Shown in pieces: positions 39,242-41,906 of a stretch of DNA of 64,000 nucleotides. The stretch lies in assembly GCF_000421465.1 (NCBI RefSeq), contig NZ_ATXB01000002.1, positions 362,690 to 426,689 on the forward strand, written 5' to 3'. Numbering within the stretch: position 1 is the first letter of the stretch; each line of letters begins with the position of its first letter. The notes below the pieces were generated by a model, which was not told the DNA's origin, ran no database searches, and saw only the letters and a list, made by a program, of their open reading frames with translations. The position numbers and the translations under genes were made by a program. The stretch comes from Methylohalobius crimeensis 10Ki (lineage in GTDB: Bacteria > Pseudomonadota > Gammaproteobacteria > Methylococcales > Methylothermaceae).

Positions 39242-39667
39242 ATGAAAAAAAATCCTACTCATTCGACTGTTTCCGCTATCACTCTTGCCGCAGCGCTCGG
39301 CAGCGCACTGACCGTGGCTTCCGAACCGGTCGCGGCAGCCGGAGGCGGTAAGGAAAAATGCTACGGCGTCGCCCTCAAGGGCAAGAACGACTGCAAGGCC
39401 GGACCGGGAACCACCTGCGCCGGCACCGCCAAGAGGGACTATCAGGGCAACGCTTGGAAGCTCGTGCCGGCGGGCACCTGCGAGGAAATCCGGTCGCCCA
39501 CGTCGCCGACCGGATTCGGCCAGCTCAAGGCCTACAAAACGGCCATGAATCCTTGTGCGGCGAAAAACCCTTGCGCCGCCAAGAACCCCTGTGCCGGCAA
39601 AAACCCCTGTGCAGCGAAGAACCCCTGCGCCGCCAAAAATCCGTGCGCGGCAAAAAGCGTCTATTGA
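39242..39667 (+). CDS. bufA: Bufferin-type RiPP precursor (BufA1/DUF2282) with NPCAAK-repeat tail
   Basis: The 141-residue product has a signal peptide (about 1-33, ending near VAAAG), a DUF2282 bufferin region with four cysteines (C40 in EKCYGV, C51 in KNDC, C59 in TTCAGT, C80 in GTCEEI), then an unusual tail of six hexapeptides NPCAAK (103-138, third copy NPCAGK) ending SVY. MNIO enzymes convert such cysteines into 5-thiooxazoles, giving copper-sequestering peptides. It is the first gene of a buf operon (precursor, MNIO enzyme, partner, DoxX). Confidence 0.88.
39548..39655 (+). repeat. Six tandem 18-bp repeats encoding NPCAAK
   Basis: Six consecutive 18-nt units encode N-P-C-A-(A/G)-K. Units differ at many synonymous third positions (aat/aac, cct/ccc/ccg, tgt/tgc) while the peptide is nearly constant, so selection seems to act on the peptide. 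Confidence 0.85.
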
Positions 39668-39697
39668 TCCCATTTCCTCGTTTTGGAGCGTTCGTCG

Positions 39698-40588
39698 ATG
39701 ATGATCTCCTATGCCCTCTTGGACCCTGATTCGGCGGGCGCTCCACCTTTTACCCGCCTGCCCGCTTCGGCGGGCATCGGCCTCAAACCCGAGCATTATC
39801 AAACCATCCTCGACACCCGGCCAAAGGTCGGATTTTTCGAGGTTCACGCGGAAAATTACCTGGGCGCGGGCGGACCGCCGCATCACTACCTGACCCGCAT
39901 CCGCGAGAATTATCCGCTGTCGGTGCATGGCGTGGGACTGTCGATCGGCTCCGAAGGGGGCATCGACCAGACCCATCTCGACCGTGTGGCCGCCCTGCTC
40001 GACCGTTACCTACCGGAAATGTTCTCCGAACACCTGGCCTGGTCGAGCCACGGCGGCGCTTATTTCAACGATCTCTTACCGCTGCCCTACACCCGGTCGA
40101 CGCTCAAGCGCGTGTGCGATCACATCGATCAAATCCAGGAGCGGCTTAGGCGCCGCATCCTGCTGGAAAACCCTTCCACCTATGTGGAGTTCGCGCAAAG
40201 CGCCTTGACCGAACCCCAATTCATCGCCGAAGCGGTCAAGCGGACCGGCTGCGGCCTGCTGCTGGATGTCAACAATGTCTATGTTTCCTGCACCAACCAT
40301 CGTTGGAACCCGCGCGCCTATATCACCGCCTTGCCTTTGAAGCAGGTAGAGGAAATCCATCTGGCCGGGTTTTCCGAGGATCGCGACGCGGCCGGTTCGC
40401 CCCTGCTGATCGATTCCCACGGCAGCGACGTCGCCGAGGCGGTATGGGCACTTTATGAATACGCTCTGGAAGGCACCGGACCGGTGGCCACCCTGATCGA
40501 ACGGGACAACGATATTCCCCCGTTCAAGCATCTCCTGCGGGAAGCACTGCACGCGCAAACCCATCTTGCAGCAAGGAGACCGGCATGA
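39698..40588 (+). CDS. bufB: MNIO (DUF692) family multinuclear iron-dependent oxidase, bufferin maturation
   Basis: The 296-residue TIM-barrel protein belongs to DUF692/[50 protein letters not shown] and [11 protein letters not shown] supply the metal-binding His, Glu, Asp and Asn residues. It would use a mixed-valent iron cluster and oxygen to modify precursor cysteines. ATG 39698 follows GGAG at 9-nt spacing; an in-frame TTG 15 nt earlier is unlikely. Its stop overlaps the next gene by 4 nt. Confidence 0.92.
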
Positions 40589-41361
40589 CGATCCAAACCG
40601 AATTCGCCGCCGCCCTGCTCGACCCCGAGCGGCTTTGTCCGGAAGGATGGATCGCCTGGAACGGCTCGGATGCGGAAAAGCGCCTGGCGGTCTATCGCAA
40701 CAACGTGGTCGCCTCCTTGATCGATGCGCTGGCGGATACGTTTCCGGTGACCTGCGAGTTGGTGAGCGAGGCATTCTTTCGCGCCATGGCCCACAGCTTC
40801 GTCGAGGCAGAACCGCCTCGATCTCCCATTCTGGCGGAATACGGCCATCGATTCCCGGATTTTATCCAATGCTTTCCGCAAGCTTGTATCGTCCCCTACC
40901 TGGCCGACGTGGCGCGGCTGGAGTGGCTGTATCTGACCGCCTATCACGCAGCCGATGCCGAGCCTCTGGACAGAGCGCGCTTCCTACGAGCGCTGACCCG
41001 TACCGAGGATTTGCCCGCCGCCCGCCTCCGCCTGCACCCTTCGGCGGGCATCTTGCGCTCTTCCCATGCCGCCCACTCGCTCTGGGCGGCCCACCGGGGA
41101 GAGATCGATTTGACCGCGGTCGATCCCTATCGTCCCGAGGACGTGCTCGTCGTCCGTCCCCGGTTGCAAGTTCGGGTCTTTCCCCTGCGTCCCGGCGCCG
41201 CCCGGTTTTTGGATCGGATCAGCGCCGACATACCGTTCGGCGAGAGTGTGTCGGCCACGGTCGAGGCCCATCCGGAATTCGACCTGACCGGCGTGCTCTC
41301 CGATCTGATCGGCGCAAACGCATTGATTGCATTGGACCTTGACGAGGAAAGCTCCGCATGA
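40585..41361 (+). CDS. bufC: DUF2063 (BufC) precursor-recognition partner of the MNIO enzyme
   Basis: The 258-residue protein has an N-terminal DUF2063 domain ([45 protein letters not shown]) and a C-terminal wing-like domain. In bufferin and related MNIO systems the partner binds the leader or signal segment of the precursor and presents it to the MNIO enzyme. It overlaps bufB and the doxX-like gene by 4 nt each, so the four genes are one operon. Confidence 0.9.
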
Positions 41362-41906
41362 ACGCATTACAATCGTTTCTCGAAACCTCCGCCGGCGCAA
41401 AAATCACCCACTGGATCGAAAAGTCGATCCAATATTTGGCAAGGATCCCGGAAGCGCTGATCGCTTTCGTGGGACGGTTTTCCATCGCCGCGGTGTTCTG
41501 GAAATCCGGCCAGACCAAAATAGAGGGGTTTGCCCTGGACATCTTCGATGGCACTTTCCAGTTGGGCTGGCCGCATCTGTCGGACACGGCGGTGTACCTT
41601 TTCCGGGAAGAATATCAGCTCCCCTTTATCAGTCCGGAACTTGCCGCCCCCTTCGCCGCATTCGCCGAACATCTATTTCCTATCTTGCTTTTATTCGGCC
41701 TCGCAACCCGCTTCTCGGCCCTCGCCCTATTGGTGATGACGCTGGTCATCCAGCTATTCGTCTACCCAGGCGCCTACCCCACCCACGGAACCTGGGCGGC
41801 GATCCTCCTCTATCTGATGGCGCGCGGCGGTGGTCTGTTCTCGATCGATCATTGGCTCGCACGCGAGGCAAAAGCCAAGAAAATCGGCCAAACCGAAACG
41901 CCATAG
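41358..41906 (+). CDS. DoxX family membrane protein of the bufferin operon
   Basis: The 182-residue protein has about four membrane helices and the DoxX signature (SIAAVFWKSGQTKI, PFAAFAEHLFPILLLFGLATRFSALAL). DoxX-like genes commonly close bufferin operons (bufD); their biochemical role is unproven. A possible part in quinone-linked reduction or peptide export is only a suggestion. No terminator is obvious after it; the opposite-strand pseudogene starts 63 nt downstream. Confidence 0.87.
   Translation: MNALQSFLETSAGAKITHWIEKSIQYLARIPEALIAFVGRFSIAAVFWKSGQTKIEGFALDIFDGTFQLGWPHLSDTAVYLFREEYQLPFISPELAAPFAAFAEHLFPILLLFGLATRFSALALLVMTLVIQLFVYPGAYPTHGTWAAILLYLMARGGGLFSIDHWLAREAKAKKIGQTETP

Follow-up and report, generated by a model that had tools for sequence, protein, structure and literature searches.

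The bufferin precursor encoded in the window, that is, the whole stretch of 64,000 nucleotides of Methylohalobius crimeensis 10Ki DNA analysed here, ends in a tail of six NPCA(A/G)K units, and what explains this tail is the DUF6969 gene directly upstream of bufA, a gene absent from the finding of an earlier, sequence-only reading of the same DNA. NPC arrays and DUF6969 genes are associated in other genomes too. We see an even chance that the tail is an NPC-repeat peptide, a separate small protein in relatives, which has been fused onto the bufferin, with DUF6969 acting on the tail and BufBC on the core. On the whole, the NPC tail and DUF6969 point to an undescribed bacterial system handling cysteine-rich secreted peptides.

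The bufferin locus and its host genome

Pfam and NF050167 matches bear out the operon as previously read, composed of a DUF2282 precursor, an MNIO enzyme, its DUF2063 partner and DoxX (Table 1). The overlapping starts claimed for it are found at bufB/bufC and bufC/doxX, by 4 nt each, but not at bufA, which ends 30 nt before the bufB ATG. The precursor is of Buf1 type, with a DUF2282 match over the curated cut-off, four core cysteines and the bufABC order with DoxX, and its N-terminus appears Sec-like as judged by eye. The gap of 185 nt from the DUF6969 gene to the bufA start counts against our explanation as far as co-transcription is concerned.

Table 1. Features of the bufferin locus, in window coordinates
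Feature	Position	Strand	Evidence
DUF6969 gene, 243 aa	38325..39056	+	PF22308 E 2.3e-85, 285.7 bits vs cut-off 27; full-length member
bufA, bufferin-1 type precursor (DUF2282), 141 aa	39242..39667	+	PF10048 E 2.1e-25, 88.9 bits vs cut-off 22.4
Six NPCA(A/G)K units, C-terminal tail fused to bufA	39548..39655	+	sequence, shuffles, codon-position pattern
bufB, MNIO (DUF692) bufferin maturase	39698..40588	+	PF05114 E 2.7e-108; NF050167 BufB 393 bits vs cut-off 310
bufC, DUF2063 partner of MNIO	40585..41361	+	PF09836 E 5.7e-29
DoxX membrane protein of bufferin operon	41358..41906	+	PF07681 E 2.6e-16

The host genome has one DUF2282 gene, and outside the tail it shows no NPCAxKNPC array and one single NPC-x-x-K match; a stand-alone NPC peptide gene was searched for there and not found. 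An AMO/PmoA-family gene is present in two copies, one of them, at the locus read, flanked by ORFs which we take to resemble pmoC and pmoB, and for these reasons we regard the host as a methanotroph. Neither DUF2282 nor DUF6969 is detected in nine other genomes of the genus that were searched. The host also carries a second MNIO gene (locus L203, G000:C1:2670418-2674200), immediately preceded by an ORF of the same orientation that encodes 140 residues with 7 Cys and a lipoprotein-like start (CFGINACKG... CMGMNSCKG), and that may be a Buf2-type precursor.

Compared with the Buf1 clusters in the available part of PMC12452194, the window is alike in precursor family, in the four core cysteines and in the order of BufB, BufC and DoxX, and differs in having the six C-terminal NPCA(A/G)K units and the upstream DUF6969 gene. 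The Buf1 fusions described in that part involve cytochrome c, FGE, MerC and tandem Buf1, none of them with NPC repeats, and the words NPC and Pro-Cys are absent from its main text as available.

The NPC tail of BufA

The tail proves to be as first described: six NPCA(A/G)K units make up residues 103-138 exactly, SVY comes after them, and the precursor has ten cysteines, at 40, 51, 59 and 80 in the core and at 105, 111, 117, 123, 129 and 135 in the tail. The four core cysteines match the four of tail-less relatives, and every tail cysteine is preceded by Pro and followed by Ala. The NPCAxKNPC pattern has five matches in the window, all inside the bufA tail, and none in 100 shuffles, which rules out a chance repeat. 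When the six units are compared, third-codon columns vary in 6 of 6 cases, second positions in one and first positions in none, showing that the DNA has drifted under a conserved protein sequence; fresh DNA slippage is ruled out by this pattern.

Such a tail is rare in bufferins, as it occurs in none of 39 other DUF2282 loci examined; 38 of the 39 have no Cys after the domain, and the row of the remaining one, L229, is a partial first match whose apparent "tail" contains the bufferin's own start. Among 369 genomes of the class, eight have the NPC pattern, and it lies inside a DUF2282 ORF only in the window. The fusion is thus seen in one genome, which counts against our explanation and would suit a recent neutral fusion whose tail has no function of its own. 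We consider the latter very unlikely, since the repeat protein sequence has been kept (here or before the fusion) with varying third positions, and the neighbouring DUF6969 is intact.

Relatives with separate genes

Two genomes of the same order as the host, G012 and G044, have the NPC peptide(s), DUF6969, BufA, BufB, BufC and DoxX as adjacent separate genes, and the shared proteins are 64-75% identical to those of the window. In both, BufA runs to [16 protein letters not shown] and a few residues more, and stops at the point where the window's protein enters its tail. It is because these two genomes carry the NPC peptide, DUF6969 and a tail-less bufferin as separate neighbours that we read the tail as a fused peptide. 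The window's BufA is about 70% identical to the tail-less BufA of G012, G044 and G050. G907 has an NPC peptide side by side with DUF6969, and no bufferin gene is found in the 3.6 kb examined. G050 has a bufferin operon and, after it, a DUF6969 gene without about the first 95 residues (H61, H79, H81, H90 and H92 are gone), and no NPC peptide is present within the 14.7 kb examined. G036 has only a DUF6969 fragment close to a contig end, which says little. Overall, DUF6969 is intact in four of 301 genomes of the order, all of them with an NPC array, whereas no array lies close to the single copy that is clearly broken. Rfam gives no match to a riboswitch-like stretch that precedes BufA in relatives.

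NPC arrays outside bufferins

A scan for NPCAxKNPC with one genome per species yields at least 119 stretches, and the hosts among the matches listed include Pseudomonadota, Cyanobacteria, Rokubacteria, Nitrospinota and others. Classified by sequence motif, the ORFs among these matches comprise 57 stand-alone PC-repeat peptides, 36 SoxA/TsdA-like cytochromes, 21 P460-like cytochromes, nine other CxxCH proteins, six thioredoxin-fold proteins, and 13 that are other, partial or chance; five examples were verified in Pfam, with SoxA-TsdA_cyt-c, Cytochrome_P460, Thioredoxin and TPR matches. NPC arrays are therefore a widespread module of secreted-looking proteins. A bufferin operon is present, in the DNA examined, at one of the 119 matches listed (L042, Gallionella), and its bufferin is tail-less. 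The tail as a bufferin-specific feature is ruled out, the repeat being common in other secreted proteins of several phyla. The NPC pattern was also looked for in viral contigs and none was found, and the papers listed by text searches with the repeat strings are unrelated, none of those listed naming the NPC repeat.

Two groups of arrays may be described separately. P460-like cytochromes of marine alphaproteobacteria (L101, L060, L076 and L056, the last confirmed in Pfam) have 32 to 43 NPC motifs per ORF and are among the densest Cys arrays seen. Cyanobacterial thioredoxin-like proteins (L011, L083, L098, L100 and L120) begin with NPCASK repeats; DUF6969 is absent from the DNA examined, and a DsbD-like gene family is present in these five loci and in L007.

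DUF6969 as companion of Cys-repeat peptides

With the window's DUF6969 as query, tblastn matches 46 of the 119 NPC loci listed at 47-70% identity, and an HMM finds DUF6969 in 47 of them, at a median of 103 bp from the NPC ORF. It is the commonest other neighbour of the listed arrays; the next family is found in 13 loci. Against our explanation, 72 of the 119 listed loci show no DUF6969 in the DNA examined, although most span at most 8 kb (25 are shorter than 8 kb), so that a missing DUF6969 is not a proven absence; the five loci with thioredoxin-type NPC proteins, all without DUF6969 in the DNA examined, count against it likewise. In the 369 class genomes, the NPC pattern occurs in 8 and DUF6969 in 30, and both occur in 7, each pair within about 1.1 kb (Fisher p 9e-8). 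The exception is G121, with the NPC pattern and no DUF6969, again a point against our explanation.

Seen from the side of DUF6969, a Cys-repeat peptide is fused or close by at 44 of 53 loci, several of the 53 being closely related (e.g. L155-L157, L254-L256) and hence not independent cases. An automatic upstream test is positive at 36 of the 53 loci, against 6 of 53 on the opposite strand as control. Without L142, L240 (false ORF in the tested interval) and L249, dropped by eye, 33 positives are left, to which are added PC peptides farther off in five loci (L240, L247, and L241, L242 and L244 via L263-L265), other Cys repeats in five (L153, L154, L251, L252 and L258) and the window, giving 44; L274 is an additional positive outside the 53. 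The nine loci without a Cys-repeat peptide (L141, L142, L149, L150, L169, L239, L246 at a contig edge, L249 and L253) tell against our explanation. The Cys motifs differ among DUF6969 subfamilies, including NPCAAK, GGNPCAPSAR, SPCSL/SPCGL, NPCSLDED, KKPCAA, GCCGCC, GCCAAE and KCGA. This diversity also counts against our explanation, in that one common chemistry is a guess; on the other hand, a conserved DUF6969 beside peptides that keep a Cys repeat and change its motif looks, from sequence, like a maturase with its precursors. The window itself has an intact DUF6969 next to such an array.

A divergent DUF6969 branch is preceded by short peptides with an N-terminal AxAIDHTRH and (S/N)PC(S/G)L repeats (L158-L168 and L170, e.g. 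L159), and SPCSL-type DUF6969 loci are often preceded by a Sulf_transp gene and followed by a rhodanese gene. At L258 (G772:C4:7029-10601), a DoxX-like gene is followed by a secreted peptide with KCGA/CGAK repeats and by DUF6969, and the 3.6 kb examined contain no MNIO, as if DUF6969 occupied the place of MNIO.

The NPC cysteines might instead carry sulfane sulfur (persulfide), the tail then serving sulfur handling and not copper. The fusion of NPC arrays to SoxA/TsdA-type cytochromes, the Sulf_transp genes in 12 of the 119 NPC loci listed, and the Sulf_transp and rhodanese genes flanking the SPCSL-type loci all speak for it; we think it unlikely for the window, where the tail goes with a bufferin operon, the genome carries pmo genes, and a scan of the near neighbours of the operon identified no sulfur gene.

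Sequence and predicted structure of DUF6969

Pfam lists DUF6969 (PF22308) as a family without described function; NCBIfam and PADLOC give no match for it, and our text searches of the literature brought up no paper that mentions DUF6969 or PF22308. Homologues are present on Sinorhizobium and Azospirillum plasmids; of two records examined, one is unannotated and the other gives a "hypothetical protein". Six residues, H79, H81, H90, H92, H124 and N143, are invariant in 44 close homologues (proteins above 200 aa from 43 of the 46 tblastn-positive loci, plus the window) and in 35 remote ones, with the motif form HxH...HGHxH...H, and H61 is present in 31 of the 35 remote homologues. The window's DUF6969 has all residues invariant in the alignment. 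An AF2 model (mean pLDDT 93.5, pTM 0.91) places five strands between helices, and the invariant residues are located on or beside the predicted strands 74-80, 89-96, 122-130 and 136-142. From these strand positions the residues would cluster in space, and the His-rich motif of the model probably binds metal. In Foldseek the model's best PDB match has E 0.66 and none reaches 0.001, which does not in itself prove a new fold; VIA-align gives a best Z of 3.4 among Foldseek's own candidates, and the sole row of the sequence search against PDB has E 0.06. By eye, no signal peptide is evident, so DUF6969 would act before export, like MNIO enzymes.

An invariant His-rich motif, together with the tie to Cys peptides of changing motif, resembles an enzyme and its substrates. 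This makes it rather unlikely that the tail is an unmodified metallothionein-like thiolate arm binding Cu(I), with DUF6969 as a chaperone, metal-delivery or regulatory protein that makes no covalent change. Such an arm would agree with the regular Cys spacing and the bufferin context, and also with the listed arrays lacking DUF6969 in the DNA examined, many of which may work alone.

MNIO enzymes and the tail

The sequence-only reading assigned the tail to the MNIO system, as its second substrate or as a metal-loading module. This finds no support, as MNIO is present in one of the 119 NPC loci listed, in the DNA examined; nor is the repeat confined to bufB/bufC, for it goes with DUF6969. An MNIO match exists in 25 of 33 genomes with DUF6969 or NPC, and the eight genomes with no MNIO match (G074, G121, G127, G147, G185, G205, G210 and G270) include three with NPC arrays, G074, G121 and G185. 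Among the 33, MNIO adjoins DUF6969 only in the host (G000), G012, G044 and G050, and lies about 15 kb off in G111.

In the part of PMC12668002 available, FonBC, a characterised thiooxazole MNIO, accepted Ala after Cys and rejected Pro at any repeat position, although FonBC is not the window's BufB and its rejection of Pro may not transfer to the tail. That BufB also modifies the tail cysteines, giving a bufferin with extra thiooxazoles, as the earlier reading had it, is to us quite improbable. The tail belongs to the same protein and operon and offers the accepted Ala after each Cys; however, it has Pro before every one of them, and the scarcity of MNIO at NPC loci and its absence from some NPC-array genomes argue in the same direction.

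The Lys-Cys captophorins (fontiphorin, oxazolin), as far as described in that part of PMC12668002, are like the tail in having short regular Cys repeats and a cytosolic partner enzyme. Their unit is the 5-residue EGKCG, with Lys before Cys and an MNIO, whereas the unit of the tail has six residues, with Pro before Cys and DUF6969; the tail is not a Lys-Cys (EGKCG) captophorin repeat.

Proposed maturation and implications

According to the fused-peptide explanation, DUF6969, apparently cytosolic, would act on the Pro-Cys cysteines of the tail before Sec export, and may oxidise, cyclise or metal-load them. The available part of PMC12452194 reports modification of the central cysteines of Buf1 and a disulfide between the outer two; BufB and BufC would likewise turn the central core Cys51 and Cys59 into thiooxazoles, as in known bufferins. 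One precursor would then be served by two maturation systems, BufBC for the core and DUF6969 for the tail, and what is exported may be a chelator in two parts. Its metal would most likely be copper, in a methanotroph whose methane monooxygenase depends on copper. We favour copper for the window because of the bufferin operon and the pmo genes; in general, NPC/DUF6969 may serve either metal or sulfur handling. More tentatively, and short of an even chance, DUF6969 could be a metal-dependent, MNIO-independent maturase serving a large class, as yet undescribed, of ribosomally made peptides with Cys repeats ((N/S)PC and related motifs). The window bufferin would then be a naturally occurring double precursor, its core handled by one enzyme system and its tail by another, unrelated one, prior to export.

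The fusion links a characterised system, copper chelation by bufferin and MNIO, to DUF6969 and the PC-repeat peptides, which are without described function, and the pair thereby gains a testable hypothesis, that of precursor and maturase in metal or sulfur handling. The fused bufferin would be a convenient substrate in this respect, because the expected core modification is an internal control for the tail. Since DUF6969 is present in 30 of the 369 class genomes and in 20 of 398 phylum genomes, a known function would supply annotation for many loci, among them c-type cytochromes bearing the same repeats.
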